Shown here piece by piece: positions 14,993 through 38,276 of a stretch of DNA of 64,000 bases. The translations under genes were made by a program, and so were the position numbers. Position 1 is the stretch's first letter. Every line of letters begins with the position of its first letter. This DNA is from a virus. The notes beneath the pieces were generated by a model. That model worked only from the letters and a program-made list of their open reading frames with translations, did no database searches and was not told where the DNA came from. Location of the stretch: positions 1-64,000 of IMG/VR virus record IMGVR_UViG_3300018059_000012. One strand, 5' to 3'.

Positions 14993-15882
14993 GCAGGCGT
15001 CTCGATATCGGCATCGCAAGCTACGGTAATCCAGCAGGGTTGCAGCGCCTGCTCGAGTCGTTGATGAAGACCTGTACAACGGATTGGCGGGCAGTCATCG
15101 TAGTGAATTCACATCCTGATCAGGAGCAAAATGACGCTGTGAACCGGATCCTCAAGGGCTGGGAAGATATCGACAGCAACGAGGATGGCGAGCGTCAACG
15201 GATCAAGCTGATTCGTCCGAAGGGAAACATCGGTTACGTCGGCGCGGTGAATCGGATCATGCAGGAGTGCGAGAGTGAGTACATCGCCTATTGCGATCAC
15301 GACGTCGTGCATCACAGCAATGGGTGGGATGAACTGATGGCACTGACACTGGATCGCTATCATGAGTTGGGGATTGTGTTTCCCAACGGTGGACCATATC
15401 CGATTCCTCGGGCGATGTACGTCGAGATCCTCTGGGGTGTCGGGTGTAACTGGATGATGTCCAGGCGTGTCGCGGCCGAAGTTGGCGGATTCGATCCTGA
15501 GATCGGGCATCATGAAGAGGTTGACTACCAGATCAGACTCCGCCTGGCTGGCTATAAGATCGCCGCGCTGCCGCAGATTCAGGTACAGCACATGGCGGTG
15601 GCATCCAGTGATCCAGCTTCGCAGGATCGGATCAGCAAGGGTGTAATCAACTGGGTCAACAAGTGGGTGCGCTACTTCGGTGGGCAGAATATGTCCTACT
15701 TCGCGAGCAATGTCTTGCGCCACGAAGACTGGCCGACTAGTGCGCTCTACCTCGAGGAATACTTCAAGCAGGCACTCCCGAATCTGAATCTCAATCCGGA
15801 AGTGGTAGTGGTCAACGGACAGGAGTTCGATCTCATCAAGGTGCCCAGGCTCAAGGGCTTCTACCGGTCACGCATCATCTAG
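14989..15882 (+). CDS. GT2-family glycosyltransferase
   Basis: 297 residues with a GT-A fold outline: IGIASYGNPAGLQRLLESL at the start, NIGYVGAVNRIM, the metal/nucleotide motif YCDHDVV, then GVGCNWMMSRRVAAEVGGFD and HHEEVDYQIRLRLAGYK, where EVDY/RL matches the acceptor-side ED region. GT2 enzymes transfer a sugar from a nucleotide donor. ATG 14989 overlaps the previous stop. The acceptor could be a virion protein, lipid carrier or modified base. Confidence 0.75.
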   Translation: MSRRLDIGIASYGNPAGLQRLLESLMKTCTTDWRAVIVVNSHPDQEQNDAVNRILKGWEDIDSNEDGERQRIKLIRPKGNIGYVGAVNRIMQECESEYIAYCDHDVVHHSNGWDELMALTLDRYHELGIVFPNGGPYPIPRAMYVEILWGVGCNWMMSRRVAAEVGGFDPEIGHHEEVDYQIRLRLAGYKIAALPQIQVQHMAVASSDPASQDRISKGVINWVNKWVRYFGGQNMSYFASNVLRHEDWPTSALYLEEYFKQALPNLNLNPEVVVVNGQEFDLIKVPRLKGFYRSRII

Positions 15883-15899: not shown

Positions 15900-16760
15900 A
15901 TGACCTACAAGCGCGAGGATGTAGCGTGCATGATGCGGATCAGGAACGAAGCCCGCTGGATTCGTGAGGTAATCAGCAAAGCGTTTCAGGTTGTTGGAAC
16001 TGTGGTGGTACTCGACGATGGGAGTGATGATCAGACTGTTGCAGAGTGTGTCGCAGCCTGGTCAGGGCATGTTGATGTAGTTCCGAATCATGATACATTT
16101 GTCCTGAGATCTGATGAAGCTACGTTGCACGTTATTCGTTCGCCATTCAGGCCGGCAACGCGTACCTCACAAGCAGTGAGTGAAATCCGGGACAAGAATT
16201 TTCTCTGGGAATACTGCAAGAGCAAGGTATTGTTCAGGCACATGCTCTGTCTCGATGGTGATGAGGTCCCGAGTCAGGTATTCATCAGGGATTTTCATCA
16301 GATCATCATCTGGCTCGAGAAGCAAGTAGATGTCGTGAACATCCCATTCATCTACCTCTGGGATGGGAACAATCAGCGGCGCGTGGATGGGATCTATGGG
16401 AACCTGCCTGATGGGCAACCGCGTCTTCGGTTTCCACGCCTATTCACCATCGATCGGATTACGCCTGATCAGCTCCACATCATGCGATTCGCCTGGGAGG
16501 GGAGCAAGGGTGGCTTTCACTGTGGCTCTATCCCGCAGGAGAACTTTAGACCGAATGGTGGGGAGAAAGTGATAGCGACATTTGGGCGAGCACTGATTCA
16601 CTACGGCTATCGTGATGATGCGGATCGGCGTCGGAAGTACGTCTTCTACAACCAGATCGATCCGGGTAACAAGTTCGAAGGGGAGTACAAGCACATCATT
16701 GGAGAGCCGAACGTGCATGCTCCAGGTGCTGTTGAGTTGATTTCATGGGACGATAAATGA
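15900..16760 (+). CDS. Glycosyltransferase, GT2-like
   Basis: 286 residues. CMMRIRNEARWIREVI and VVVLDDGSDDQTV are the usual N-terminal GT-A elements, and LCLDGDEVPS holds the DxD-like metal site. The C-terminal part (SKGGFHCGSIPQ, HYGYRDDADRRRKY) resembles phage and bacterial enzymes that extend surface glycans. CAGGGAGAG lies 9 bases before the ATG. It forms a pair with the preceding transferase. Confidence 0.7.
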   Translation: MTYKREDVACMMRIRNEARWIREVISKAFQVVGTVVVLDDGSDDQTVAECVAAWSGHVDVVPNHDTFVLRSDEATLHVIRSPFRPATRTSQAVSEIRDKNFLWEYCKSKVLFRHMLCLDGDEVPSQVFIRDFHQIIIWLEKQVDVVNIPFIYLWDGNNQRRVDGIYGNLPDGQPRLRFPRLFTIDRITPDQLHIMRFAWEGSKGGFHCGSIPQENFRPNGGEKVIATFGRALIHYGYRDDADRRRKYVFYNQIDPGNKFEGEYKHIIGEPNVHAPGAVELISWDDK

Positions 16761-17346: not shown

Positions 17347-17579
17347 TGAGAGTGATGATGCTGGTGTTCAGTCTGCTATGTCTTGGTGGATGCGCGGATC
17401 TCCTGATCCTCACCGCGATCACGATCAAGTGCGGACCAATGCCGATGTCTGCGAGCGATTGTGAAGGCGGACGAGGCTGGGGATTCACGCCATCACTGCC
17501 GCCACCCAAGCCTATGGAGATTTGTGAAGCCTGGGTCGATTCCCTCATCGCTGATGCGCTCGGGTGTGTGATGCCATGA
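17343..17579 (+). CDS. Small lipoprotein
   Basis: 78 residues. MMRVMMLVFSLLCLGGCADL has the lipobox LGGC at residues 14-17. The mature part has further cysteines (IKCGP, SDCEG, EICEAW, GCVMP) and a proline run. It may anchor to a host membrane. ATGA overlaps on both sides. Confidence 0.55.
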   Translation: MMRVMMLVFSLLCLGGCADLLILTAITIKCGPMPMSASDCEGGRGWGFTPSLPPPKPMEICEAWVDSLIADALGCVMP

Positions 17580-17959
17580 CCCTACGCGCGGACCTGGAGG
17601 CCATCGAGGCCAGAGTGGCGGCGGCGACGAAGGGGGAGTGGCTACCCGGCGATGCGCACAAGCAGTACAAGCTCCCCTTGGAAGGTCACGTTTTTTGCGA
17701 TGGACGCCTCGTGGCAAACTGTCATGGTCACCAAGACGGCCACGAGCAGACGCGCCAAGAGAATAACGACAACGCACGATTCATCGCCCACGCCCACCAG
17801 GACCTCCCACGCCTAGTGCAGGGGCTGCGGCTGGCCATCACGGCGCTAGATCAGACGGCCAAGATCGTAGACCGCCGTTATCGCCACGCCGCCACGATTG
17901 CTGAGCAGGCCCTGGCCGCTATCGACGCCATCAGTGAGGACAAGGGAGGTGAGAAGTGA
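17576..17959 (+). CDS. Phage hypothetical protein with NDNARFIAHAHQDLP motif
   Basis: 127 residues. The outline LEAIEARVAAATKGEW, then NDNARFIAHAHQDLPRLVQGL and a helical end is common in phage and actinobacterial proteins of unknown role. It starts a stretch, up to about 20 kb, with noticeably higher GC and more GCC/CGC codons than the flanks. Confidence 0.6.
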   Translation: MTLRADLEAIEARVAAATKGEWLPGDAHKQYKLPLEGHVFCDGRLVANCHGHQDGHEQTRQENNDNARFIAHAHQDLPRLVQGLRLAITALDQTAKIVDRRYRHAATIAEQALAAIDAISEDKGGEK

Positions 17960-18180
17960 TGGACGAACTACGAATGGACAAAGGGGATGTGACAGTCGAA
18001 GAGATCGACGAGGAATGCGACGCGTGCACGGTCGGGCCGCCCACGCATATCGTGAGGCTCAACATTCGATCCGCTGGTGAGGCCCACGAGCTTGGGCGCT
18101 ATTGCAAGGCGTGCGCGAAGAGCGTCGCTGAAAGAATCCGGGACGGCCTCCCCCACGCGCTGGGCCAGGAGGGGGAGTGA
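17959..18180 (+). CDS. Small Cys-rich protein
   Basis: 73 residues from ATG 17959 (TGATG). EECDACT and RYCKACAKS give a CxxC...CxxC zinc site around the strand THIVRLNI. Family unknown. Confidence 0.5.
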   Translation: MDELRMDKGDVTVEEIDEECDACTVGPPTHIVRLNIRSAGEAHELGRYCKACAKSVAERIRDGLPHALGQEGE

Positions 18181-18407
18181 TGGTCTTCATGACGCTCAAC
18201 TCGGAGTACACGATGGAAGAGAAGTCTCCGGGTGTGTTCATCATCACCAAGACCAAGGAGTTGAAACCCAGCCGATTCAACGATGTAGGCCAGCAGCGTA
18301 TGAGCAGTGAGGCGCGCGTCGTCGTGGGTGAGTGCGCGCAGTTTGACTCGTGGCATACCAGCAGGGTTGTGAGCATCGACACCCCCGGAGGCCCGCTCAA
18401 TGGATAA
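18180..18407 (+). CDS. Hypothetical protein
   Basis: 75 residues, TGATG start directly after the preceding stop. Mixed charged/beta composition, no motif seen. It overlaps the next start by 8 bases. Confidence 0.45.
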   Translation: MVFMTLNSEYTMEEKSPGVFIITKTKELKPSRFNDVGQQRMSSEARVVVGECAQFDSWHTSRVVSIDTPGGPLNG

Positions 18408-18801
18408 GCGCACGGCGCGGCGGGCGGCTGAGTGGGCGCACGAGTGGCTCAATGGTAAAGAGTCGCTGGCGGAGCTGCTGGGGCGGTTCTCCATTCACGA
18501 GATCGCGGTCTGGCGACGGAAATATGAGGCCGACGCCATCGCGCGGGCCGTGTGGGCGGAGAACGAGCGGTGCATTCGTGCGATCTGTCTTGCGTGTCGT
18601 GAGGCTGACGACAGCGAAGGCCCGGAAGCGGAGTATCAAGCTGACCCATCGCCAATGTGGTGGCATGGAACGAAAGAGTGTAAGGCAGCAGCCCTCCGCG
18701 CGTCGTCGCCCCCGGAGATTCCCGCTGCTATAAGTTGGCTAGCGCACGATAGTCACGGGTGCGCGAAGTGTTCCCCTTTGCCCCCGGAGGTGACGCGGTG
18801 A
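18400..18801 (+). CDS. Hypothetical protein with possible zinc site
   Basis: 133 residues. A helical N-terminus (RTARRAAEWAHEWLNGKESL) resembles a short DNA-binding helix set. Cysteines occur at RCIRAICLACRE, ECKA and CAKC, so a metal site is possible. No family. Confidence 0.45.
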   Translation: MDKRTARRAAEWAHEWLNGKESLAELLGRFSIHEIAVWRRKYEADAIARAVWAENERCIRAICLACREADDSEGPEAEYQADPSPMWWHGTKECKAAALRASSPPEIPAAISWLAHDSHGCAKCSPLPPEVTR

Positions 18802-18899
18802 GCAACCCCTCCGGCGGTCATATGGAATGCCTCTTGGCCGGTAAGTGCATGTGTGAACCCTGGAAGAAGCCGCGCAAGAAGAAGAGGACCCCGCGATGA
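18798..18899 (+). CDS. 33-residue basic peptide
   Basis: GTG start overlapping the previous stop and a stop overlapping the next ATG (ATGA). Sequence: a short Cys part (MECLLAGKCMCEPW), then a strongly basic tail (KKPRKKKRTPR). Coupling at both ends is the evidence that it is real. Confidence 0.4.
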   Translation: MSNPSGGHMECLLAGKCMCEPWKKPRKKKRTPR

Positions 18900-19192
18900 G
18901 CGAGGCGACAAGGACACCAATGGGTATCTCAGGTTATCTCATCACGACAAGTGGGAAGGAGCCGAAAGCGATGACGGACCAGCCCCGCGACGCCACAAGA
19001 CAACCGACCTTCACCGAGCGCAAAGTGTTGGAGCTGATCGCCCTGAAGCAGGATTACGTAGCCGACACGATCCACCCGCGCGCGTTCACCGCGTGTTGGG
19101 CGGCGGGGTGGATCGCCGCGAACCCGCAGAATGAAGAGTACCCCGACGCGGTGATCTTGACAGATACAGGTCGGAGGGCTCTTGATGCCTGA
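18896..19192 (+). CDS. Small protein with winged-helix-like segment
   Basis: 98 residues from ATG 18896. A second start, ATG 18971, follows GGAAGGAG and would drop the first 25 residues. The body (TERKVLELIALKQDYVADTI, later ILTDTGRRALDA) resembles a winged-helix wing-and-helix pattern, as in small regulators. Function unknown. Confidence 0.45.
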   Translation: MSEATRTPMGISGYLITTSGKEPKAMTDQPRDATRQPTFTERKVLELIALKQDYVADTIHPRAFTACWAAGWIAANPQNEEYPDAVILTDTGRRALDA

Positions 19193-19970
19193 CCCCCGCG
19201 ACGCGGGCGTGGAGGCGGCGCGCAAGATTGTCGATAGGTTCATTGTGCTCAGCACGGAGGGTGAAACGAACGTTGAAGCACCTGAGACGCTGGTCCAGGC
19301 CATCGCCGCCTACACCGACGCCGCCGTGAAGGGGAAGGATGAGCATATTGCTCAACTGGAACGCGAGCGCAGGAAGGCCGATCAACTCAGTGACGATCAC
19401 GTGCGTAGGCTGATCGACGATGTTTATGGCTTGACAGTTCGCCTCGCCGCTGCGGAGGGGGAAGTGAGCCGCCTGTTTAGCGTCCTTGCCAGTAAGGAAG
19501 AAGATCGCCTGCATACAGACCAGGAGACGACCAAGGCCATTGAGGAGTTGATTGCTGAGCGCGACACGCTCAAGGCCGTGCGGGATCAGTTGCGGGTCAA
19601 CGTCGCGGCGATCACTGAAAAGGTATCGCGTTACGACCGGGAGGTTGGCGAGCTTAAGGCCGCCGTCGAGCAGGCGCTAGCGCGGATCGACACGACGCTA
19701 CGCGCCGCATCCGAGGAGCGGTATCAAGAGATGGCGAGGTGGGAGGCGGAGGCGCTAAAATGGAAGGCTGAAGGAGATATGTACGGCTGGAACTTCTTCC
19801 AGGGCATGAAGTCCGGAGCCAACTGGTGCGACATCATCTATCGGCGCATCGGGCGCGAGGTCGCAGCGATCCGCGAAGAGCGGGCCGCCCTCATCGCGGT
19901 GTCAAGTATCGACATACGTCCAGCGACGTTATCTATGGAGACGTACGAAGGATTCAAGGGGAGTGACTGA
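19185..19970 (+). CDS. Coiled-coil protein
   Basis: 261 residues from ATG 19185 after GGAGG. Residues about 45-190 are dense in Glu, Lys, Arg and Leu with heptad-like spacing (DEHIAQLERERRKADQLSDD), a long coiled coil. The end (YGWNFFQGMKSGANWCDIIY) is distinct. Such proteins accompany the preceding small genes in other phage accessory blocks. Role unknown. Confidence 0.5.
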   Translation: MPDPRDAGVEAARKIVDRFIVLSTEGETNVEAPETLVQAIAAYTDAAVKGKDEHIAQLERERRKADQLSDDHVRRLIDDVYGLTVRLAAAEGEVSRLFSVLASKEEDRLHTDQETTKAIEELIAERDTLKAVRDQLRVNVAAITEKVSRYDREVGELKAAVEQALARIDTTLRAASEERYQEMARWEAEALKWKAEGDMYGWNFFQGMKSGANWCDIIYRRIGREVAAIREERAALIAVSSIDIRPATLSMETYEGFKGSD

Positions 19971-21873: not shown

Positions 21874-22079
21874 CGCCCTGGCATTTGCTGAACAAGCGTG
21901 ATTGGTTGGCGTCGTGCCGGGAGGCGCTCACACGAGGTCGTATCACTGCTGTCCAACGACACAGGGAGACCGATGATGAGCGATCCAACGACGGACAGTC
22001 CAGCAGTGCTTCTGAACAGACCAGAGGGCGGATCCGAACTCCAGGGTCGTTCACCTGGCGTGGCAGAGGGCCAGCCTGA
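21870..22079 (+). CDS. Doubtful 69-residue frame
   Basis: It begins with an ATGA overlap, which is the usual linkage here, and fills the 100 bases before the glycosyltransferase start. The second half overlaps that gene out of frame and is Arg/Ser/Gly-rich, as shadow frames are. It may end up being non-coding. Confidence 0.25.
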   Translation: MTPWHLLNKRDWLASCREALTRGRITAVQRHRETDDERSNDGQSSSASEQTRGRIRTPGSFTWRGRGPA

Positions 22080-23451
22080 GTCTACCCTTGATCTAGAGGG
22101 GAAAGATTCAACCCAGGCCCAGGACGGAGCACAGGCTAGGGGCTGGGAGCGGGGTATCCGGACCCCACCTGGGACCAGGCTGCTCAAGGTCCTGGTCCCG
22201 TCCTGCACTGATCAATTCCTGAATGTCTGTCTCGCGTCGATGGAGCGGAGTCAGCCAGGCTCCACCGGCAGCGTAATCATCGGGGACAACGGCATCAGTG
22301 AGGAGCTGAAGCGGAAGTATCCACAGGCGGTGTACATCCCGATTCCCAAGCCGTTCGTCTTCGCCAAGGCGGTAAACCTCATGGCGCAGGCGGCGGGGCA
22401 GTACCTCACGCAGATCCGCGACGACAACCAGAAAGACTTCATCGGGCCGGATCTCCTGGTGCTCAACGATGACTGTGAGGTGGAGAGCATCCACTGGCTG
22501 CACATGATTCAGCAGGCGCTAAGTCTGCCTACCCATCAGGACTACGGGATGCTGAGCCTGGAGATCAATGGCGGGGTGGGCAACGACGAGCAGAAGGTCA
22601 CACATCAGAATCCCGACGGGCTCACCGAAGTGGAGAAGCCGCTGATGTTCGTAGCGGTGGTGATCCGGAACGAGTGCTGGCAGACCGTGGGCCCACTCGA
22701 TGAGCGCTTCGTCGGCTACGGCTTCGATGACAACGACTACAACGTCAGGGTGAAAGCGGCAGGATTCAAGTGCGGGGTGATGGGCGCGGCCCGTGTCAAG
22801 CACGGGATGGGCGGCTATCCCCATTCCTCCTCATACGCCAGGATCTACGGGCAGGCGGAATGGAACAGACTCTACGAGATGAATGGCCGGCTGCTCAAGC
22901 ACAAGTATGGAGTGAAGGAAGTCACCAACCGGCTCTGCCTGAACATCGGATGTGGAGATCAGCCCAAGGCGAGCGAAGGCCTGGACCGCTGGTTGAACAT
23001 GGACATTCAGAACTTTCCTGGTGTGGAGATCGTCAGGGATCTCCGCCGTGGCATCCCGGTGCCTGATGAGACGTTCGATCACGTCCTGCTTGACAACGTG
23101 CTCGAGCACTTCGAGTCCGAGGATGTGGTCTTCATCATCAATGAGATCGATCGGATCCTCAAGGTCGGTGGGACGGCGGAGATCATCGTCCCGCACTGCA
23201 TGGTCGGGCAGGGTGCCTATCAGGACCCGACACACAAGAGCTTCTTCGTGCCCAGGTCAGTGCTGTACTGGAATCAGGAGATGAGTGCACGCGGTGGGAA
23301 GTTCGTGGGGATCTCCGCGAACCTCATCCCCTACCCCGATGCCGCGAAGGGCATCCAGGTCTACGGGGATTCGACGCACACCGAGGAGTTCATCCGCTTT
23401 ATCCTCAAGAAGAAGGCATGGGACAATCCTCGCCCGGTGATCACGTTCTGA
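21976..23451 (+). CDS. Fusion: GT2 glycosyltransferase plus SAM methyltransferase
   Basis: About 491 residues from ATG 21976, 7 bases after GGGAG (ATG 21973 also possible). Residues 1-70 are low-complexity. A GT-A domain follows: LLKVLVPSCTDQFLNVCLAS, FAKAVNLMAQAAG, the acidic motif LVLNDDCEV and ERFVGYGFDDNDYNVRVKAAG. The C-terminal third is a type-11 methyltransferase: LNIGCGDQP (SAM loop), WLNMDIQNFP, FDHVLLDNVLEHF and LKVGGTAEIIVP. The enzyme could add and then methylate a sugar, for example to cap a glycan. Confidence 0.75.
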   Translation: MSDPTTDSPAVLLNRPEGGSELQGRSPGVAEGQPESTLDLEGKDSTQAQDGAQARGWERGIRTPPGTRLLKVLVPSCTDQFLNVCLASMERSQPGSTGSVIIGDNGISEELKRKYPQAVYIPIPKPFVFAKAVNLMAQAAGQYLTQIRDDNQKDFIGPDLLVLNDDCEVESIHWLHMIQQALSLPTHQDYGMLSLEINGGVGNDEQKVTHQNPDGLTEVEKPLMFVAVVIRNECWQTVGPLDERFVGYGFDDNDYNVRVKAAGFKCGVMGAARVKHGMGGYPHSSSYARIYGQAEWNRLYEMNGRLLKHKYGVKEVTNRLCLNIGCGDQPKASEGLDRWLNMDIQNFPGVEIVRDLRRGIPVPDETFDHVLLDNVLEHFESEDVVFIINEIDRILKVGGTAEIIVPHCMVGQGAYQDPTHKSFFVPRSVLYWNQEMSARGGKFVGISANLIPYPDAAKGIQVYGDSTHTEEFIRFILKKKAWDNPRPVITF

Positions 23452-24808: not shown

Positions 24809-25075
24809 ATGGACAGGCGAGGATTCCTCAGGTACTTGCCGATGCTGCCAACATTGCCGGCAGTGGCGATGCAGCACATCACTCCGATACAGAAGATCAT
24901 GACGAGCGAGACCACGAGGCCGACACTCATGAAGGGTGGGCTCTTCAAGACGCGGCAGTCGTGGGAGGTGCTCGCCAATGGTGGTAAGCGGATCATCGAG
25001 CATGTGACCTGGGTGACCGTGAACAACGAAACCATACCCGGTAGTACGCGGTGGATCCAGTATGCAAGGCGTTGA
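24809..25075 (+). CDS. Small protein with Tat-like signal
   Basis: 88 residues. MDRRGFLRYLPMLPTLPAVA has D-R-R-G-F-L-R, close to the Tat consensus S/T-R-R-x-F-L-K. The rest is short, basic and beta-rich (WEVLANGGKRIIEHVTWVTV). Strong AGGAGGG ribosome site. Phage Tat substrates are uncommon; the hydrophobic core is short, so this needs care. Confidence 0.5.
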   Translation: MDRRGFLRYLPMLPTLPAVAMQHITPIQKIMTSETTRPTLMKGGLFKTRQSWEVLANGGKRIIEHVTWVTVNNETIPGSTRWIQYARR

Positions 25076-25799
25076 AAGCGAGAGCGGTGGGGTCATGGTC
25101 GCTGTCCCATCCAGCGGTCTGACTCGCTACATCACCTTCGAGATGTCAGTCGAAGGGGTTTTCGTTCCACGGCATTCCACGTATGCGCGGCCATCGAGCA
25201 GCAGCCCGGCGTGGAACCGGAATGAAATGATCAGGCGGGCCAAGCCGGAGATCTCCCACTTCTTCTTCGTCGATGATGATCACATGTTCGACCAAGAGCT
25301 GATCATGAAGTTGTTGGCGCACAAGCTGGAGATCGTCTGCTGCTTGACCCTGCTGAGCAAGCCTCACTTCTGGCCGGTGCTCTTCGCGGATGAGGTAAAG
25401 GTGAACGGCAAGACCAAGTGGCAGTCCGTGCCGTGGACGGAGTTGGATCACAAGACAGGGCTCTACGGCCCGGTGTGGGCAGCGGCAGGCGCTGGCATTC
25501 TCGTGGCGAAGACACTCACCGATCGCATTCCGGATCCATGGTTCGCGCTCGGGCAGTACTCCAAGGATGAGTGTCATGAGGATATGTACTTCTACGATCG
25601 GGTCCGTGAGGCTGGGGTGCCGATCTACGTCGATGTCGAGGCCGTGCTTGGGCACACGGCGCCATGTACGGCGATGCCGGTTCGTGGTGATGATGGGCTC
25701 TGGCGCGTCCAGCTCGTCTGGGAGAATGGGGAGACGGTCACCCTCGATCGCAAGGACTCGATGCTGAAAGCACAGATCCTTGCCGGAGCCAGGCCATGA
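25062..25799 (+). CDS. Glycosyltransferase-like protein, GT-A fold
   Basis: 245 residues. FFFVDDDHMFDQELIMKLLA is a GT-A type DxD strand. AAAGAGILVAKTL and DECHEDMYFYDRVREAG (the ED acceptor motif) follow, and GHTA closes, as in phage GT2-like enzymes. The first about 25 residues are variable; ATG 25098 is an alternative start. It continues the glycan theme of the block. Confidence 0.65.
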   Translation: MQGVESESGGVMVAVPSSGLTRYITFEMSVEGVFVPRHSTYARPSSSSPAWNRNEMIRRAKPEISHFFFVDDDHMFDQELIMKLLAHKLEIVCCLTLLSKPHFWPVLFADEVKVNGKTKWQSVPWTELDHKTGLYGPVWAAAGAGILVAKTLTDRIPDPWFALGQYSKDECHEDMYFYDRVREAGVPIYVDVEAVLGHTAPCTAMPVRGDDGLWRVQLVWENGETVTLDRKDSMLKAQILAGARP

Positions 25800-26992: not shown

Positions 26993-27203
26993 ACCCAAAA
27001 AGCCTCGGCGTCGGCGGATCACCAAGCCACGCTGTGGCTGCTGTGGGGCGACGATCTACGTGAGTCGGCAGCAGTGCCTGGTGATCATCGGTCACTTCGA
27101 GAAGGAGAACGGACAGGCCGAACAGTACGTCATGCCTGTGCATCTCGAGTGTGCGAAAACATCCAGACAACTTGCCTTCGATGCGGGGATGCGGTGTAAC
27201 TGA
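26985..27203 (+). CDS. Small zinc-finger protein upstream of terL
   Basis: 72 residues from GTG 26985. PRCGCCGATIYVSRQQC and HLECAKT give a zinc site with a strand between. One-base overlap with terL. Confidence 0.5.
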   Translation: MPEPKKPRRRRITKPRCGCCGATIYVSRQQCLVIIGHFEKENGQAEQYVMPVHLECAKTSRQLAFDAGMRCN

Positions 27204-28993
27204 TGTTCTACCGAACCGGGATGCGCTATCTGGAAGTCCCGCCCGATCTAGAGGAGATCGAGCAGAGCGCTGAGGTCGAGCAACACCTGGTGAACGTCGC
27301 GTCTCGCTGGTTCATGAATCCTGTCGCCTTTGTCTGCGAGGTGCTCCAAGCCCAGCCCGATCCCTGGCAGTGTGATTTTCTCGATGCCGTTGCGGATCCA
27401 GACCCTGAGAGTGAGAACATCGCCCTCAGAGCGTGTCATGGTCCAGGCAAGACCACCACCTTAGCGTGGGCGATCGACTGGTTTGCGGCGACACACCCGT
27501 ATGCGAAGATCCCCACCACTGCCCCAACATTCAACAAGCAGGTGCGAGATATTCTCTGGGCTGAGATCCACAAGTGGTGGCGCATCGGCCTTGACAACCA
27601 GGAGATGCCCGAGGCGCAGTGGTTGCTCAATCAGTTCGAGCTCACCACCACCCGGCTCTACGCCAAGCACGCCCCAAACGAGTGGTTCGCGGTCGGCATC
27701 GCCTCGTCAGAGCCGCTCAACATCGAGGGTTATCACAGCCCGTATCTCCTTGCGGTCTTCGATGAAGCCAAGGGCGTGAAGAAACAGATCTGGGAGTCTG
27801 TCCAGGGCATGCGCACCACCCAGGCTGCGAAGCTGATTGTGGCTTCTACCCCAGGCGGCCCACTCGGTGAATTCTACAAGGTGTTCACGCAGTATCGGAG
27901 TACGTGGAAGCGGACGTTCGTCATTCATCCACGGGCGCTACAGGCGACGCTGAAGCGGAAGGAAGCCGCGCCGTACTCCAAGGGTGGGACGTACTACAGT
28001 GACCGCGTCAGGCCGGAGTGGATTCATGAGCGGGCTGAGGAGTGGGGCACTGACTCCCCGGCGTACATCGCCCGTGTCATCGGGGACTTCCCCACTGTTG
28101 AAGGCGATGTGCTCATCCCCTACTCGTGGCTCAGTGAGGCCGAGGATCGTGATGAGGGGGTGGGCGGGGATCTCGCCGTGGTCTCCTGCGACGTGGCGCG
28201 GTACGGGCGGGACCGGACAATCCTCTTTGCCGGCAGCGGAGGGACGGTGAACTATGGTGAGAGTATCGCACGGACGCCGGCGGAAAGCCTGTCCCCCGAT
28301 GCCACAGAGGCAAACATTGGGGCAAATCCTCGCCAACCTCGGTATCGATCCGTCGACGCGACGGCTGACTCCTGTCGGCGAGTCCGGCAGATCACTGGTG
28401 GCGATGTCATCGTCGTCGACGACACGGGTGTTGGCGGTGGCGTCACTGACATCCTCCGACGCAAGGGTGAAAAAGTCATTGGTATCAATTTTGGTAGTGC
28501 CCCGACCGACCGTCCGAAGGATGCTGAAGAACGCGAGGCTCGCAAGCGCAAACACCTCCTCGACTCCAAGTTCGTCAACCTCAAAGCGGAGATGGCTTGG
28601 GCGCTCAGGGGGGCGTTCGAGTCAGGTCTGATCGGACTCGGGCAACTCCCACCCTCCATCAGAGATGCCCTCGTCGCGCAGTGCAGCATGGTCAAGTACG
28701 AACTGGATCAGTCAGGACGCATTCGCATTGTCGACCCTGATGAACAGGATCAACTCGCGGCGGCTGCTGGCACGCTCGAAGGCAGGAAGTCGCCTGATCA
28801 CTTTCACAGCCTGATCCTCTACTGGTGGATCGCCGGGAACCTTGGCCGTGGCGTCAAGCCGAAGTCAGGCAGTCCGATTCCATCGGGCATCAAACGCTTG
28901 GGCTCGTCAGGGCAGGCGCAGCGCAGTATGACCCCGAACGCGCCACAGACACGCGGACCCGGGCAGGCAGGTTGGGTGAAACGGCGCTACTGA
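27203..28993 (+). CDS. terL: Large terminase subunit
   Basis: 596 residues. ATPase domain: Walker A CHGPGKTT (residues 78-85) and Walker B LLAVFDEA (Asp187-Glu188). Nuclease domain: CDVARYGRDRTIL with Asp330, then VIVVDDTGVGGGV with Asp406-Asp407, the RNase H-like metal site. TerL drives DNA into the prohead and cuts the concatemer. Overlaps the zinc-finger gene by one base. The TerS-like candidate is far upstream at 10993. Confidence 0.92.
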   Translation: MFYRTGMRYLEVPPDLEEIEQSAEVEQHLVNVASRWFMNPVAFVCEVLQAQPDPWQCDFLDAVADPDPESENIALRACHGPGKTTTLAWAIDWFAATHPYAKIPTTAPTFNKQVRDILWAEIHKWWRIGLDNQEMPEAQWLLNQFELTTTRLYAKHAPNEWFAVGIASSEPLNIEGYHSPYLLAVFDEAKGVKKQIWESVQGMRTTQAAKLIVASTPGGPLGEFYKVFTQYRSTWKRTFVIHPRALQATLKRKEAAPYSKGGTYYSDRVRPEWIHERAEEWGTDSPAYIARVIGDFPTVEGDVLIPYSWLSEAEDRDEGVGGDLAVVSCDVARYGRDRTILFAGSGGTVNYGESIARTPAESLSPDATEANIGANPRQPRYRSVDATADSCRRVRQITGGDVIVVDDTGVGGGVTDILRRKGEKVIGINFGSAPTDRPKDAEEREARKRKHLLDSKFVNLKAEMAWALRGAFESGLIGLGQLPPSIRDALVAQCSMVKYELDQSGRIRIVDPDEQDQLAAAAGTLEGRKSPDHFHSLILYWWIAGNLGRGVKPKSGSPIPSGIKRLGSSGQAQRSMTPNAPQTRGPGQAGWVKRRY

Positions 28994-29550
28994 TGCGAAG
29001 CAGTGAGGATCTCTTGCTCACGCGGCGGCACCTGAGCATTGCCTGTGTTGGGAACGGGACGCCACGCGTGGCCAATGGCTCAATGATCGACCGCTTTGAT
29101 GTTGTGATTCGCTTCAACAACTATCGCCTCGCCCCATACGAACATCTTGTCGGAGTCAAGACAACATGGCGGTGTACATCGGGATGGGGTGACATCGAGC
29201 GTCGGGTGTCGCACCCGGAGTTCAGTCCGTTTCGTGCTGATGCGCCACAATCACTCCATATCCCCTGGTACACCGCGCGGCAACCTGAGCACCCACTCCG
29301 GACAGCGGAGTATGATATCAGACTGGACTGTCTCAAGCTTGGGATTCAGGCGCCGTCAACAGGCTTCGCCTGCCTGCTGCTTTGTGCAGCCCTGGCGATG
29401 TCGGTGACCATCTTCAATTTCGATGGTTTTCTCACACCACCCTACTGGACGCCTGATGCGCCGGTGATCAGCGGGCATAGTCGTGATGAAAGGGTGGCAC
29501 TCAAAACCTTAATTGGGATGCAGCAACCAGGAGCAATGCGGCAAGTATGA
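28993..29550 (+). CDS. GT29 sialyltransferase-like protein
   Basis: 185 residues. All sialyl motifs can be read: motif L (VGNG at about 18-21, IDRFDVVIRFNNY, VGVKTTW), motif S (PSTGF at about 121, a Leu/Ala helix, then NFDGF) and the VS-like HSRDE near 161. GT29 enzymes transfer sialic acid from CMP-sialic acid; bacterial members exist but I cannot tell their donor. No signal or membrane anchor. TGATG start after terL, so it is expressed with packaging genes. Confidence 0.75.
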   Translation: MRSSEDLLLTRRHLSIACVGNGTPRVANGSMIDRFDVVIRFNNYRLAPYEHLVGVKTTWRCTSGWGDIERRVSHPEFSPFRADAPQSLHIPWYTARQPEHPLRTAEYDIRLDCLKLGIQAPSTGFACLLLCAALAMSVTIFNFDGFLTPPYWTPDAPVISGHSRDERVALKTLIGMQQPGAMRQV

Positions 29551-29563
29551 AAGGTGGTGCGTG

Positions 29564-31216
29564 ATGGATTCAGTCGGTAATGGACCGGAATCGAAAGACG
29601 TCTTGGCCGTGCTCGATGGGGAGCGGCAGCCAGGATCGGTGCTTGAAGGCAATGGGGTCAGACCCAAGGCGGGTGCGAAATGGGGGAAGTGGCTGAGCCT
29701 CCCGCAGTACGATCCGGATACGAAGTCCGGACCGAACAAGTTCATCACAAGCACCTACGAGTATGCCAAGCGGTTTGCGATCGTGGATCCGTCAATCGCG
29801 ATCGGTGAATCCTGGAAGGGGGATGAGGCCAAACACGGTGTTGAGATTCCAGGATTGCCGAGCAAGATCATTCCACGTGATGTCGCCGGTGTCATGCTCG
29901 TGCCGTCGCGTGAGGGGCGGCGCTGGCGGCCAGTGGAAGTCAGGAACTACGCCGAGCTCAGACAGCTCGAAGAAAGTCGCTGGGGCCGAGATAAGCGGCA
30001 GATGGAATCCTGGGGCCGATTCATGGAAGCGCCAGGGGAGCCGTATACACCATCAGGATTCTCCAACTCACCCGGTGGCGATGCGACACGCCTGTGGGAT
30101 ACGGAATTCGTCCCGACGATGGGCGGGCCGTTCTACAAGCAGCTCTATATTCATGATTATCTCAAGATGCATTCGACTGCGTTCGCGATGGTGAATCACA
30201 ACGCGCTTGCCGCCGCGGCGATTCGGATCATGGAGCGGTTCACGATCGGGCGTGGGATCTCCTATGCGATCAAGGATGATGAGGTCAGGAAGGTCTGGGA
30301 CAAGTTCTGGCGGCGGAACAACATGAAGCAGAAGTTCAAGCAGATGGCGCGGGATCTCCCCTGGCAGGGTGAGCTCATGCTTCGATTCTACGAGAAGTCC
30401 AGGGGCGTGACGAACTTCAGGGTGCTCGATCCATCCACCTGCTGGGAGGTGGTGACCGACCCTGAGGACATCGAGGAGGTGTACTACTACCACTTTCAGT
30501 GGCCGACGCCCTATCAGACCTGGGTAAGCGGGAATATTCCATCGTCACGGTACATCGTCCAACAGGTTCCGCCCACGAATATCATGCATATCAAGGTGAA
30601 CATCAGCAGTCAGGAGAAACGGGGCCGCAGCATTCTCCTGGCAGCGATGCCCTGGCTCCAGCGCTTCAACGACTTCTACAATGGGCAGACAATCAAGGCG
30701 GTGCTCGAAGCGAACCTGGTCTTCAAGATCAAGGTCAAGGGTGATCAGACCGACGTTGATAGCTTCCTCGAGAATCCGGCACTCACGGAGCTGCCACCCC
30801 CAGGTGGTGTCTGGATCGAGAACGAAGCGGTGGATCTGACCGCCACGAGCGCAGTGCTCACCGCCGGGAGAGGTAGTCAAGGGATCGGGCAGCAGATCGC
30901 GAGTATCGTTGCGGCGTCGATGTTGCTCCCGAACGAGTATTTCAACATCGAGTCTGGGGCGGCAGCCCGAGCGACAGCGCTGGTCAGGACGGATCCGGCG
31001 GTCAAGACCATCGAGGATCAGCAGCAGATTCTCAAGGAGACCGGGCAGCAGATCTTCGAGCGTGTCATCGCCGAGGCGATCAACGCTGGGGTGATTGATC
31101 CAAGCAAGGCCAAGCATGCCAACCCGGATACGACCATGGACAATGGGCAGGATGATGAGGATCGTGAGATCAAGCCTATGCGAGCCCAGGCGCGGCTAGT
31201 CAGGACGGTGGCGTAA
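29564..31216 (+). CDS. Portal protein
   Basis: 550 residues from ATG 29564 after AAAGGTGGTG. Portal character: position after terL, a long acidic/Trp-containing N-terminal arm, the mid-part LYIHDYLKMHSTAFAMVNHN and RGRSILLAAMPWLQRFNDFY (a conserved portal helix), and a C-terminal helical QQIASIVAASMLLP segment. The portal ring is the DNA gate and the start point of head assembly. Confidence 0.8.
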   Translation: MDSVGNGPESKDVLAVLDGERQPGSVLEGNGVRPKAGAKWGKWLSLPQYDPDTKSGPNKFITSTYEYAKRFAIVDPSIAIGESWKGDEAKHGVEIPGLPSKIIPRDVAGVMLVPSREGRRWRPVEVRNYAELRQLEESRWGRDKRQMESWGRFMEAPGEPYTPSGFSNSPGGDATRLWDTEFVPTMGGPFYKQLYIHDYLKMHSTAFAMVNHNALAAAAIRIMERFTIGRGISYAIKDDEVRKVWDKFWRRNNMKQKFKQMARDLPWQGELMLRFYEKSRGVTNFRVLDPSTCWEVVTDPEDIEEVYYYHFQWPTPYQTWVSGNIPSSRYIVQQVPPTNIMHIKVNISSQEKRGRSILLAAMPWLQRFNDFYNGQTIKAVLEANLVFKIKVKGDQTDVDSFLENPALTELPPPGGVWIENEAVDLTATSAVLTAGRGSQGIGQQIASIVAASMLLPNEYFNIESGAAARATALVRTDPAVKTIEDQQQILKETGQQIFERVIAEAINAGVIDPSKAKHANPDTTMDNGQDDEDREIKPMRAQARLVRTVA

Positions 31217-32663: not shown

Positions 32664-33995
32664 ATGTCAACGTTCCCACCGATCCTGTTCAAGTCGACCG
32701 ATGCCGGCGCCCCCGTCCTCACGGGAGAGGTCGGCAAGCTCATCGGCGTTCTCTCATCCTGCTTGATCTGCAACTCGATGTTTACCGGGATCAGTGGCGC
32801 GTCGTTCGTGGACAACACGGCCGAGGCACGTTTGCAGGGCGGTACCGGCTTCGTCCTGTTCCAGGGCCCGACCGTCACCGTCGATGAAGCCTACGTCGGC
32901 ATGTCGTCGCGCTTCGGCCGCGTCAAGATCGTCTTCGACACACCCGGCGTCCAGAACGCGGCGATCACCCTTGCATGGGAGTACTGGGACGGGTCAGCGT
33001 GGACAGCCCTGTCCGGCGTGGCCGATGGCACGTCGGAATTGACGGCCGACGGGACGGTGACCTGGACGATCCCGGGCGACTGGGCGGCGGTCGCGGTCAA
33101 TGCGGTCACACAGTTCTGGATCCGCGTGCGCTTCACGGCGGGCTCCTGGACGACGAACCCGCTCGTGGCGACGCTGAGTGTGACGGGGTGGACCCTCGCC
33201 TTCGGGCCGACGGTCAACGTCGCGGACTACCAGCAGGGCGGGGGTAACCAGTTCTACCTCGACGTGAACGACAACGGGTCCGGGGCGGCGACCAGCGCCC
33301 GCCTGCGCGGGTATGAGGTCATGACGGCCCTCGCGACGGGGACCGGGCCGTTCCCGACCGCGGTGCAGTTCGCGAACGGGCTCTTCGCCCGCAAGGCGAC
33401 CGCCGCCAACGCCACCGCGCGGCCGTGGTTCGTGGTCGCCGACGATCGCACGATCTACGTCATTACGTTCCCAGGTGATTCGTCGCGGTACTTCGGGTTT
33501 ATGTTCGGGGACATCTATAGCGCCGTTGTGGGTGACGGCTTCCGGACCGAGTTGATCGCCATGACCGTGGAGGACGGCGCTGGTTCGAGCGAGCATCTCG
33601 CCCGGGTGGTCGCCAGTCTCGCGGTTGTGGCCGGGCACTACATCGCTCGACCATACACGGGCATCGGCTCCGCGCTGAACGTCGGTAAGTCTGCAGATGC
33701 CTCGAAGCAGGCGGGTGCGACCACCGAGTTAGCCGGGGCCATCACATATCCCAACGCGCCGGACGGCGGGCTGTACCTCGCGCCGCTATGGGTCAATGAG
33801 GGCGGCATCTACGTGCGCGGGCGCCTCCGAGGCTTCTGGTGTTTCCTGCACGCGATCACGTCACTCACTGACGGCGACACGTTCTCCGGCGCCGGGGCGC
33901 TCTCCGGCCGGACGTTCCTCTTCCTCAAGCCGACTGCGCCGGCCGGGGCCGGGGCCTTCGTACTTGAGACGTCCGATACGTGGGAGACGAACTAG
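32664..33995 (+). CDS. Structural protein, beta-rich
   Basis: 443 residues after AGAAAGGAAAATCT. Beta-sandwich-like composition (ITLAWEYWDGSAWTALSGVA and similar strands), with an exposed Ser/Thr/Gly-rich surface. GC-ending codons like those of the capsid gene suggest an abundant virion component, such as a decoration or fibre protein. Its place just after the portal block fits a head-surface role. Confidence 0.55.
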   Translation: MSTFPPILFKSTDAGAPVLTGEVGKLIGVLSSCLICNSMFTGISGASFVDNTAEARLQGGTGFVLFQGPTVTVDEAYVGMSSRFGRVKIVFDTPGVQNAAITLAWEYWDGSAWTALSGVADGTSELTADGTVTWTIPGDWAAVAVNAVTQFWIRVRFTAGSWTTNPLVATLSVTGWTLAFGPTVNVADYQQGGGNQFYLDVNDNGSGAATSARLRGYEVMTALATGTGPFPTAVQFANGLFARKATAANATARPWFVVADDRTIYVITFPGDSSRYFGFMFGDIYSAVVGDGFRTELIAMTVEDGAGSSEHLARVVASLAVVAGHYIARPYTGIGSALNVGKSADASKQAGATTELAGAITYPNAPDGGLYLAPLWVNEGGIYVRGRLRGFWCFLHAITSLTDGDTFSGAGALSGRTFLFLKPTAPAGAGAFVLETSDTWETN

Positions 33996-34574
33996 ATGGC
34001 CGACCTCGGCGCTATCGCGGTGATCGGGAACCTCACGAGCCAGCTTGACGATCAATCGCCTGACGTCTTCCCCTCGCGGATCGAGTCGGGCAACCTGGCG
34101 AAGGGGCTCTTGGGGCAGGTGCCGGTAGGCTACGCGAGGACGTTACAACTTACAAGCGAACTGGAGCCGTTGTTCTTCAACTTCACGCCAGCAGCGGGTG
34201 GGTTCGTCACGTTCAAGTCGGGACGTGACGACACTGTAGGAAATTCTACACCGCCAAGCCAGAAGCAGAGTCGCCCCGGGACTCTCAAGCGACTCTTGGT
34301 GCCGGTATCAGTGGGGGCGCGGACGATCTCGATCGACGTGCTCGTCGATCATGAAGACGTCGCGGTGCCTCCGTTCCCGTTGCTGATCGTGAAAGCGACC
34401 CCGGAGATTGGGCTCTTTGACGACGTTATTGCTATTGCTGCTGGTGTAGCAGGATGGCAAACGCTGACATGCGGATTCACAGCACTCTACTCCGGTGTGG
34501 TCGAAGTCTGGCGGGAACAGCCGAGTTTCAGCTTTCAGCGCGACGTCTGGTGGGACAACTTGACTGCTTCCTAG
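33996..34574 (+). CDS. Structural hypothetical protein
   Basis: 192 residues, starts on the base after the previous stop. Beta-rich with a Thr/Gln/Pro loop; no motif. Probably functions with the 32664 product. Confidence 0.5.
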   Translation: MADLGAIAVIGNLTSQLDDQSPDVFPSRIESGNLAKGLLGQVPVGYARTLQLTSELEPLFFNFTPAAGGFVTFKSGRDDTVGNSTPPSQKQSRPGTLKRLLVPVSVGARTISIDVLVDHEDVAVPPFPLLIVKATPEIGLFDDVIAIAAGVAGWQTLTCGFTALYSGVVEVWREQPSFSFQRDVWWDNLTAS

Positions 34575-34578
34575 CGCG

Positions 34579-35493
34579 ATGGCTTCGAAAGACTTTGATC
34601 TGTGGTTCATCGGAGCGCCAGTCCTCCAGACAGGCTCGACGGGCGACTTTGCGTATTGGTTCATCGGGGCACCAGTCTTGCAGTTCGGGGTGGTCACACC
34701 CCGCGACCTGGTCCGCGATGAAAGCATTCCTGTTGAGTCTGGCATTGCCCTCCAGAGTCTTGTTCTCGATGCCGCCATTCCAATTGATTCACTGGGGGCG
34801 GTGGTTGGTCTCATCCGTGATGAAGCAATCCCAGTCGAAGCCGGGCAGGGGATTCAGCGTGATGTCACGATTCCAGTGGAGAGTCATGGCAGTCTGCGCA
34901 TCACTGCGGAGATCCCTGTTGAGTCGCTTGGGAGCCTGGTTCGCGACGATGACATCCCGATTGATAGTGAACAGACACGCATCGCTCTGACACGTGATGA
35001 AGCGATCCCTGTCGAAGCGGTTACAGGAGTTACCCGTGACGATGAAATTCCGATTGACTCGACTGCTGTTGCGGTGCTTACTCTGGATCGGGATGAAGCA
35101 ATCCCGATTGATGCGTCGACTGTTCCAATCACTCCGTCGGATCTCGTCGTCTTCTACGGTGCAGGCGCCCCGTGGCCACCGTCGTGGCTCGTCAGAGCCC
35201 CGCTGCTCAACCGGACCCAGCACTGCGCAGTGCTCTACCTCGGCGGAACAAGCTGGAGTACATTCACCGGGAGCGAGCTACCCCCACGCCCGTCTCACAT
35301 GGTCAAGCCCGTTAAAGCGCCCAGGCGGATTCGGAAGCCACATCCGACTCCGGCCCATCCAGGGTATGTCCGTGCGGGGCATTCGTCGATCATCTGGCTC
35401 GGCGGGCGCTCGACGGAAGCGACGCGGATCGACAGAGCAGCCGTGATGAAACAGGATGAGGAGGACTTCATGACGCTCCTGGCACTGCTATGA
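34579..35493 (+). CDS. Structural protein with IP(I/V)(D/E)S repeats
   Basis: 304 residues. The N-terminus has a doubled unit WFIGAPVLQ (about residues 9-17 and 27-35). Residues about 44-180 carry nine copies of a 14-18 residue repeat ending in IPIDS/IPVES, usually preceded by RDE or RDD. The C-terminal third (LYLGGTSWSTFTG, HPTPAHPGY) is non-repetitive. The same repeat recurs in the protein at 56590. Regular short repeats suggest a solenoid or an extended beta fibre. Function unknown. Confidence 0.55.
   Translation: MASKDFDLWFIGAPVLQTGSTGDFAYWFIGAPVLQFGVVTPRDLVRDESIPVESGIALQSLVLDAAIPIDSLGAVVGLIRDEAIPVEAGQGIQRDVTIPVESHGSLRITAEIPVESLGSLVRDDDIPIDSEQTRIALTRDEAIPVEAVTGVTRDDEIPIDSTAVAVLTLDRDEAIPIDASTVPITPSDLVVFYGAGAPWPPSWLVRAPLLNRTQHCAVLYLGGTSWSTFTGSELPPRPSHMVKPVKAPRRIRKPHPTPAHPGYVRAGHSSIIWLGGRSTEATRIDRAAVMKQDEEDFMTLLALL
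34705..35130 (+). repeat. Array of nine IPIDS-type coding repeats
   Basis: Each unit encodes IP(I/V)(D/E)(S/A) after an acidic dipeptide. Codons differ between copies (ATTCCTGTTGAG, ATCCCGATTGAT, ATCCCAGTCGAA), so the similarity is at protein level, not recent DNA duplication. Confidence 0.7.
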
Positions 35494-38276
35494 GCGTGAT
35501 GATCGAAGCTCGGACGCATGCGGAGTTGTTACGTGATGCAAACACGCATGTGCGAACCTATCTCAATCGCAAGTTGGATGCTGATGCTGTCGACATCGCG
35601 AAGGTGTATCAGGGTTCACGCGACCGCCTGCTCACCAACCTGCGGGGGATTTACGACACGTACCTCGCCGAAGATCCGACGTATGTCCGGGCCAGGAGCA
35701 CTGGGGCGTTCAGGCAGATGCAGGCTCGTATCGATCGTGAACTGCAGATGCTGACTGATGAAGTGGGACAGCGTGCTACGGCGAAGATGGCGGAGCTGCT
35801 GAACACACAGCCTGACATCCTGGAACGTCGTCTCGGAAAGATCTTGAATAAGTCTTTCTTCAAGTTACCGGTTACGGCGCAGAACGTCTTGGGTGAGCTC
35901 ACCACGAGTGTGATTGGTGGGGCGACGTTCGAGGATCGCATTCTCTCGATGAGCGATGACATGAAGCGAGTGGTGACCAATGATCTCCGCCGCGGGCTCA
36001 TCAACGGCGATGACTTCAATACGATCCGAGCCAGGATCTCCAAGACGTTTGGCGTCGACAAGCTGAAGAAGCCAGCGTACAGTGCCTATGGGTCGGTGAA
36101 AGTCTACAAGAATGAAGCCCGTCGGCAGTGGAATTTGTTGATGAAACAACAGGCTGATCGCATGGAATCGTATATGGTGTGGTTTGCCATGATTGATGAT
36201 CCTGATGTGACGCCAGGTTGTGTGGCCAGGCACGGACTTCGGATCGATGAGGATCTCGGTGGCGATGCCCCACCCAGACACTACAACTGTCGGTGTACGA
36301 TCGCCGTGATTGATGATCGTGATGAGATCACAGAGATGCGACTTGAAGGCTCCGCGCAGCTGAAGGTGATGGGGTACTCCAGGGCCGAAGCGAGAATGGA
36401 AGAAGCGAATTGGGATCCAGCCGAACATCCACGTGGGCATGGTGGGAAGTTCGGATCCAAGGGTGGGGATGAGAAAGGTGGAGAGAAGAGTGGTGGGGCA
36501 AGGTTTGAAACACGGATGCGCGATGCCAGTGGTGAGACGTTTGTTGGACCAGATGGCAAGGTGTATTGCGATGTCGCCGACAAGGATGGGATGTACGCCG
36601 ATAATTCGTCGTTTCAGTCTGGTCACGAGACACTAGCCAAGCAAATAAAAGATGGATCGAGCGCTGCTGATCTTGTCAAGGATGGATTTGTTCGAGCGCG
36701 GATTGACAGCGGTGAGCTTGGTCTCGAGCTTGATCTCTCGAATGAGACAGCGCAGAACAATGCGATTTCAGTCGTCACATCGCATGCTAAGGGTGGTGAT
36801 GTCTTTGTAGATTTTCCTACCAAGCAAGGTGGTCTCTCAACGTCAAAGATCGCCGCATTTACTGGACGTAGTGCTCCTGGGAAAGCGATTCGTTACATCA
36901 AGTCAGGCGGCAAAGATCGTTCTGAAACGACTGAATCATGGCGGCCAGCTCGAGAGCGTGAAGCCTGGGATCCAAGTCAGCATCCTCGGGACAGCGATGG
37001 TAAGTTCGGTGGAACCGGTGGGAGTGTGTCGCCAGAAGATGTTGAGCAGTGGGCAGACGATGCTGGGGCGAAGTTCGATGGGATTCAATCCTTCCCGAGC
37101 ATCAAGGCTGATCCACTCGTTCTGATTACGGACAAGGTGTCGCAGTCGACCGGCGTGATTCCACTCAACAAGATTTCCAAGAAGGCGGTGCAGGACAAGG
37201 TCGACGAGATCAGAGCGAAATTCAAGACAGCGGGGTGGGGGTGGGGACATGAGACACTTCAGCCGGTGTCGACGATTCATGAAGTCATGCATGACGAGAG
37301 GACGCAGTACAAGAGCGTGCCCTGGCGGAGTCTCCCACGCGAGACTGCTGGGTACGAGCGTGGGACCTGGACGGATCTCCAGGTTGCTGTTGCGACGGAT
37401 CACCCGGATTCGGTCTTGCTTAGGAAGCGGGAAGGAGAGGACGTTGAAGTCAAGGGCTGGAGCAGCTGGCGACCAGTGAAGCCGTCGGCCTATCCGATCC
37501 AGACGCTCCAGGGACTTGCTGATGATAGTGCGACGATTCAGCCCCCGTGGGATATACGATCGGAACGGCTCCCGCGCGAGATCATCGCACGCTGGTCAGC
37601 ACTCCGAAACATCACGTTCCCAGTGGTGCCGGTATTTGCGATCGCACTTGTTGATCAACAGACCGCTGAGAATCTGACGACCGGAGCTGTGCCGCCGAGT
37701 GAGGTACTCTGGCAGAGTGGACTCCCGGCACTGTTCCCGCAGGCACTGATGCAGCTGTTTTGGCGGCAGGGGCATCCACCGAATCCACACTTCGTCTTCG
37801 GTGAAGTGATCGAGAAAGAAGTTCGACCCAGAACGATCGTGAACGTGACGACAGGCGAGGTAATCTATGCGGCCGACGACTTCGCGTCAGAGATTCTTTC
37901 GCCCTATACGCGAGTGGCCGCGGCAGTCCATGAGACTGACGGACGTATTTGGGCAATCATGCCTCGAGGCCTTGCACGATGGGTCCTGCCTGGTGGGCAC
38001 ATCGACGCTGGCGAGTCTCCACGCGCTGCCGTTGTCCGAGAGATGCTTGAAGAGACCGGGCAGCACATCCGCGTCCAGCGTCTGATCGGGACGTTGTATC
38101 GGCCATGGAGTCGAACGATGGTGTTCCTCTGCGCGAACATCACGAAGCACAAGAACTGGAGTTCAAGCGACGAGACGGACGCCGTGCTCGCGATTGACTT
38201 CAGAGATCTTGCGACGGACGAGCGACTCTTCCTCCAACGACATGGCATCTCGGCACGCTGGACGGAGGCGTCATGA
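35490..38276 (+). CDS. Fusion: SPP1 gp7/Mu F-like head protein plus Nudix domain
   Basis: 928 residues. Residues 1-300 match the phage head morphogenesis family: a helical N-terminus, RRQWNLLMKQQADRMESYMV, IDDPDVTPGCVARHG and PPRHYNCRCT. Two HPR-type boxes (EHPRGHGGKFG at about 310, QHPRDSDGKFGG at about 497) resemble maturation sites of phage head polyproteins. Near 834-857 lies a Nudix box: GGHIDAGE, then REMLEETGQ. Nudix enzymes hydrolyse nucleoside diphosphate-linked compounds. Such a domain fused to a head protein is unusual. ATGA overlaps at both ends. Confidence 0.75.
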   Translation: MSVMIEARTHAELLRDANTHVRTYLNRKLDADAVDIAKVYQGSRDRLLTNLRGIYDTYLAEDPTYVRARSTGAFRQMQARIDRELQMLTDEVGQRATAKMAELLNTQPDILERRLGKILNKSFFKLPVTAQNVLGELTTSVIGGATFEDRILSMSDDMKRVVTNDLRRGLINGDDFNTIRARISKTFGVDKLKKPAYSAYGSVKVYKNEARRQWNLLMKQQADRMESYMVWFAMIDDPDVTPGCVARHGLRIDEDLGGDAPPRHYNCRCTIAVIDDRDEITEMRLEGSAQLKVMGYSRAEARMEEANWDPAEHPRGHGGKFGSKGGDEKGGEKSGGARFETRMRDASGETFVGPDGKVYCDVADKDGMYADNSSFQSGHETLAKQIKDGSSAADLVKDGFVRARIDSGELGLELDLSNETAQNNAISVVTSHAKGGDVFVDFPTKQGGLSTSKIAAFTGRSAPGKAIRYIKSGGKDRSETTESWRPAREREAWDPSQHPRDSDGKFGGTGGSVSPEDVEQWADDAGAKFDGIQSFPSIKADPLVLITDKVSQSTGVIPLNKISKKAVQDKVDEIRAKFKTAGWGWGHETLQPVSTIHEVMHDERTQYKSVPWRSLPRETAGYERGTWTDLQVAVATDHPDSVLLRKREGEDVEVKGWSSWRPVKPSAYPIQTLQGLADDSATIQPPWDIRSERLPREIIARWSALRNITFPVVPVFAIALVDQQTAENLTTGAVPPSEVLWQSGLPALFPQALMQLFWRQGHPPNPHFVFGEVIEKEVRPRTIVNVTTGEVIYAADDFASEILSPYTRVAAAVHETDGRIWAIMPRGLARWVLPGGHIDAGESPRAAVVREMLEETGQHIRVQRLIGTLYRPWSRTMVFLCANITKHKNWSSSDETDAVLAIDFRDLATDERLFLQRHGISARWTEAS

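Follow-up and report, generated by a model that had tools for sequence, protein, structure and literature searches.

The open reading frame at positions 28,993-29,550 of the window, the stretch of 64,000 nucleotides of phage DNA analysed here, is confirmed as a real gene coding for a GT29-like glycosyltransferase. The family name is correct, and the gene is ordinary in the sense that it is one of many phage GT29 genes. It is unusual in its site, between the genes of the large terminase subunit (terL) and the portal protein, and in its VS motif. The linkage of phage GT29 genes to nonulosonate genes is a more interesting result than the window gene itself.

A single gene between terL and portal

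The gene codes for 185 residues and lies in an IMG/VR virus record of 75,470 bases, on the plus strand like terL, portal and the other glyco genes of the window described below. Its start codon overlaps the stop codon of terL (27,203-28,993) in the sequence TGATG, and the ATG of the portal gene (29,564-31,216) lies 13 bases past its end. The start of the portal gene at 29,564 was chosen through homology to locus L002, whereas the listed open reading frame opens at a TTG at 29,513. The PHROG matches of the terminase (phrog_2, E 8e-29) and of the portal protein (phrog_10963, E 4e-19) confirm both of the neighbours named in the earlier note. Downstream of the inserted gene, AAAGGTGG (29,550-29,557) probably serves portal as its ribosome-binding site; in L002 its AAGGAG counterpart directly follows terL. 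Codon preference between 28,993 and 29,550 is positive in the GT29 frame and negative in both other frames.

The empty site is found in a sister contig (G001, TerL identity of 87%) that is collinear with the window phage across the whole record. In the sister, terL is joined directly to portal, GT29 is missing and every other glyco gene of the window is kept (76-81% identity). By local alignment, the homology of the two phages continues to the terL stop codon plus about 10 bases and restarts at the start codon of portal; a global MAFFT alignment is misleading here and spreads the short sequence out. A more distant relative (L003) likewise has no GT29 gene between terL and portal. Because both relatives lack the gene at this site, its gain in the window phage is a simpler reading than its loss, and on these alignments it appears as a clean extra gene and a recent, well-bounded single-gene gain. 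With a GC3 of 0.605 and a codon preference of 0.093, it stays below terL and portal, although the conserved glyco gene at 15,900-16,760 is equally low. The site itself is peculiar, since in the other phage records with a TerL the GT29 gene is mostly far from terL.

Searches with tblastn and back-translated patterns in phages, plasmids and viral contigs gave no close homologue of the window protein, and the only two matches, to tail genes, are weak and due to chance. The tree neighbours of the protein, such as L093, are untrustworthy given its long branch. A search for tRNA genes as a clue to the host found none, and the TerL relatives are too distant to indicate a host.

Other features were observed in these records. 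Four further segments of the window (17,564-19,970, 32,664-34,574, 55,648-56,583 and 61,589-62,086) are also unmatched in the otherwise collinear sister. A single frame of 928 residues at 35,490-38,276 codes for a Mu F-like head protein that carries a NUDIX domain at its C-terminus. From an impression of the sequence, intein-like insertions seem to be present in the portal frame (L003:2500-4650, +) and in a head protein frame (L003:5104-9864, +) of the more distant relative.

Family membership, predicted fold and altered motifs

The GT29 homology and the predicted fold of the window protein are secure, because several sequence and model comparisons agree. The Pfam family PF00777 matches residues 17-74 with 33.3 bits (E 4.4e-8, cut-off of 23). 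A leave-one-out profile built from 129 other GT29-like proteins and domains scores the protein at 77.7 bits, and the best of 1000 shuffles of the same protein reaches 5.3 bits. An alignment profile of the phage GT29 proteins matches ST3Gal1 over nearly the full length (E 3.5e-32). The AlphaFold model, calculated from an input alignment of 60 sequences, has a pLDDT of 80.7 and a pTM of 0.78 and is weak mainly around residues 68-81. In a PDB structure search with this model, GT29 sialyltransferases take all of the 27 best places (E 9e-7 to 8e-4) and GT42 comes next, which places the predicted model in the GT29 (modified GT-A) fold. The earlier note was right about the GT29 homology and fold. The viral matches of the model include proteins that carry the name GT29 or sialyltransferase, from giant viruses, from herpesviruses and from an uncultured Caudovirales phage.

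The protein is distant from each of its relatives taken singly. Pairwise similarity to any one of them is 16-28% (alignment A3), the TM-scores of the model against PDB chains are moderate (0.5-0.7), the best match of a single-sequence PDB search is a weak one to ST6GAL1 (E 0.14), and PHROGs and NCBIfam searched with the protein gave no match. The low similarities and moderate TM-scores would suit an unrelated small phage protein that is no transferase and resembles the motifs by chance. This explanation is highly improbable and is ruled out at the level of fold prediction: the profile score is far above that of every shuffle, and the top fold matches are exclusively GT29, with GT42 next.

All the motifs named in the earlier note were located in the protein. 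Sialylmotif L, which binds the CMP-sugar, is present as VGN, G..ID..D.VIRFN and G.KTT: its first part is VGNG (residues 19-22; 29,047-29,058), its core IDRFDVVIRFNNY (residues 32-44; 29,086-29,124), where the Arg is found in 128 and the Asn in 120 of the 129 relatives, and its end VGVKTTW (residues 53-59; 29,149-29,169). The core of sialylmotif S is PSTGF (residues 121-125; 29,353-29,367), with its Gly in 125/129 relatives. The GFD that follows PSTG is replaced by NFD (residues 142-144; 29,416-29,424), at a first position that is Gly in 126/129. The region of motif III reads PPYW (residues 149-152; 29,437-29,448) in the alignment with the relatives, with Pro for His, so that the His-Tyr pair is missing. 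The region of motif VS, HSRDE (residues 162-166; 29,476-29,490), contains both His162 and Glu166 in aligned positions, spaced as H-x3-E instead of H-x4-E. The latter spacing is found in 89 of the 92 relatives that have both residues, and H-x3-E in the window protein alone; these relatives were collected by the L motif only, hence with no selection on VS. The earlier note mentioned neither the H-x3-E spacing nor the missing His of motif III.

The membership of the protein in GT29 rests on its sequence together with its predicted fold. The missing His of motif III does not decide it, since this residue occurs at that column in 47 of the 129 relatives, is absent from most phage relatives too, and motifs III and VS are both missing in 2/3 Arabidopsis members (PMC5811610). 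The H-x3-E, PPYW and NFD changes are nevertheless the reason to regard the protein as a predicted transferase only. A degenerate or repurposed GT29 protein is the second rival to an active enzyme and is unlikely. Such a protein would keep its fold and perhaps the binding of a CMP-like ligand, the altered VS motif and the missing motif III His would leave little or no transfer, and its gene would be a recent and perhaps neutral insertion. The altered VS spacing and the NFD would fit such a loss of activity, as would the long branch in the tree, the lack of donor genes in the window phage and the lack of GT29 in the sister. On the other hand, the frame is open, the L and S motifs and both VS residues are preserved, the coding bias is intact, and the missing motif III His is shared with most phage relatives.

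Phage GT29 genes and CMP-sugar synthesis

Searches with degenerate patterns of motif L yielded three phage contigs at first and then at least 119 stretches, nearly all of which code for GT29-like proteins by profile search, some as tandem copies. GT29-like genes are carried by more than 100 IMG/VR phage contigs, as a lower bound. TerL-profile matches, some of them weak, were obtained in 18 of the 23 GT29 records tested, the window record included. The isolated Stenotrophomonas phage DLP6 has a GT29-like gene, AAY80_202, amid methyltransferase, NDP-sugar transferase, glutaredoxin and glycosyltransferase genes, and the phage protein A0A6J5NLG3 is already named 'Glycosyl transferase family 29'. 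Given these stretches and the gene of DLP6, GT29 in phages is not rare. The earlier note had presented the family as one known chiefly from animals, with a few bacterial members, and the phage copy as striking. This is half right: GT29 occurs widely among phage contigs, and the peculiar points are the site and the altered VS motif. Among 398 sampled Pseudomonadota genomes, PF00777 is found in nine. A literature search for phage GT29 or for phage NeuB/NeuA returned nothing direct; most subscription papers lay outside its scope, hence it is no proof of novelty. Unusual arrangements were also observed: three phage records (L033, LR756508.1 318054-326599; L050; L145) have between three and five GT29-like genes apiece, some of them arranged in tandem, and in another phage contig GT29 is fused to a methyltransferase (L006:1311-2546, +).

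Phage GT29 genes are associated with CTP_transf_3, the family of the CMP-Kdo and CMP-nonulosonate synthetases. This domain is present in 17 of 40 GT29 phage records, which took in the window phage and its sister, both without it, whereas all 47 control records, which were not habitat-matched to the GT29 records, lack it (Fisher p 2e-7). The controls were drawn with two patterns meant to sample random contigs, the first of which yielded 14 records. Since the controls are not habitat-matched, position is a better test than co-occurrence. The distance between GT29 and CTP_transf_3 is at most 3.5 kb in 15 of the 17 records, against a mean of 2.5 and a maximum of 8 in 20,000 trials of random placement. 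In two records (G440 and G434) both domains lie within one frame. NeuB (PF03102) is present in eight of the 16 records searched, and in G419 GT29, NeuB and the synthetase follow each other, in this order, within about 2 kb.

In G440, a PseF/KdsB-like CMP-sugar synthetase and a GT29 domain share a frame of 480 residues (L177:1257-2699, +), and a NeuB/PseI-like gene follows it (L177:2696-3742, +), which gives a compact phage nonulosonate cassette. In the other fusion, that of G434 (L178:1931-3268, -), the partner of GT29 is a PseF-like synthetase, and NeuB is about 4-5 kb off.

The co-occurrence with CMP-sugar synthetases, the proximity, the fusions and the presence of NeuB suggest that the phage GT29 proteins are probably CMP-ulosonate transferases. 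The sugar could be sialic acid, pseudaminic acid, legionaminic acid or Kdo, and is not narrowed further because the NCBIfam scores of the proteins concerned are below the curated cut-offs. Many phages probably decorate either their own virions or the surface of the host with such acidic sugars.

The profile search of the window phage record, which is possibly incomplete, found neither a CMP-sugar synthetase (PF02348) nor NeuB (PF03102), the pair by which a nonulosonate cassette is recognized within one phage. For this reason, CMP-Kdo or a CMP-nonulosonate of the host is as likely a donor for the window protein as sialic acid.

Proposed role and known systems

The window phage carries five other glyco genes, all common to the sister phage. 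They code for an RmlD/epimerase-like protein with a weak C-terminal methyltransferase match (12,879-14,621; 78% identity), a GT2-type glycosyltransferase (14,944-15,882; 81%), a possible second one below the Pfam cut-off (15,900-16,760; 76%), a methyltransferase with a weak GT7C match below cut-off (21,898-23,451; 76%) and a weak GT2-like protein, also below cut-off, that matches phrog_1574 (25,062-25,799; 76%).

Our preferred reading, to which we give a probability of about 0.5, is that of a soluble cytosolic GT29 enzyme that uses a CMP-sugar of the host and caps, late in infection, a glycan on virion proteins. The phage, which already had a conserved set of glycan genes, would have acquired this short GT29-fold transferase through the insertion of one cargo gene at the junction of terL and portal. 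Late expression is suggested by the gene being read through with terL and portal. The ulosonic acid would come from a CMP-sugar that the host supplies: CMP-Kdo if the host is Gram-negative, or a CMP-nonulosonate, provided that the host produces one. The animal GT29 enzymes act with inversion, and the His of motif VS is the base in this reaction at the anomeric carbon of the CMP-sugar. In the window enzyme, His162 may be the general base for the same inversion. The acceptor may be a glycan placed on the virion proteins by the other phage glycosyltransferases. The action in the cytosol, put forward in the earlier note, is plausible, as bacterial GT29 proteins are also without a transmembrane anchor (PMC5811610).

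We infer the catalytic activity, the donor, the acceptor and the timing. The homology, the predicted fold, the intact frame, the insertion relative to the sister, the conserved glyco genes and the CMP-sugar linkage of phage GT29 genes count for this role; the H-x3-E spacing, the missing motif III His, the NFD and the lack of a CMP-sugar synthetase or NeuB count against it. The main rival, a doubtful one, keeps the enzyme class and moves the acceptor to a glycan of the host surface, such as the LPS core or the capsule, where a changed receptor would exclude other phages or spare the progeny from binding to debris. Phage glycosyltransferases that change the O-antigen are classical, GT29 genes are found in bacterial host genomes and Kdo is a sugar of the LPS core. 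However, exclusion genes are usually early or prophage-borne, whereas the place of this gene within the packaging operon makes late expression the expectation, and neither a membrane anchor nor a flippase is seen beside it.

Beyond the capping of virion glycans by the window enzyme, a wider scenario is tentative: many tailed phages would encode a nonulosonate route (NeuB, synthetase and GT29, the last two sometimes fused) and decorate their virions with sugars of the sialic acid type, and the window phage would have taken the transferase alone, reorganised its VS motif and relied on a CMP-sugar of the host. GT29 is mainly treated as a family of eukaryotic sialyltransferases that has its root in bacteria, and a survey of 23 bacterial sequences includes neither viruses nor phages in its text (PMC5811610). 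A large, mostly unannotated reservoir of phage GT29 genes, tied and partly fused to CMP-sugar synthesis, is relevant to how the family arose and suggests the decoration of particles or hosts with acidic sugars. In the window gene, the catalytic VS motif is available in a naturally occurring variant form.

Compared with the animal sialyltransferases (CAZy GT29/PF00777; ST3Gal1 2wml, ST6GALNAC2 6apl, ST8SIA3 5bo7 and ST6GAL1 6qvs), the window protein is alike in the L and S motifs, the predicted fold and the His and Glu of VS. It differs in being anchorless and 185 residues long, with a VS motif one residue shorter and no motif III His. The bacterial GT29 proteins (Helicobacter L015/L016, Pelagibacteraceae L017 and the short-type proteobacterial L024-L029) share with it a small soluble domain and the L and S motifs, and some of the short type also lack the motif III His; they keep H-x4-E, unlike the window protein, and their identity to it is about 22-30% in the aligned parts. 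A conserved disulfide is, like the membrane anchor, absent from bacterial GT29 proteins (PMC5811610). An alternative donor within GT29 is exemplified by the plant RG-II Kdo transferase RCKT1, for which genetic evidence indicates CMP-Kdo and not CMP-sialic acid (PMC11288761), although RCKT1 is a plant enzyme with pectin (RG-II) as acceptor. CstI and CstII of GT42 have a related fold and a CMP-sugar donor and are the next-best structural match, but they belong to a separate sequence family and match more weakly than GT29. The phage GT29 proteins (DLP6 AAY80_202, A0A6J5NLG3 and those of the IMG/VR contigs) belong to the same family and to tailed phages, often amid glycan genes. These relatives often lie beside, or are fused to, a CMP-sugar synthetase and NeuB, away from terL, whereas the window copy is on its own in the gap from terL to portal.
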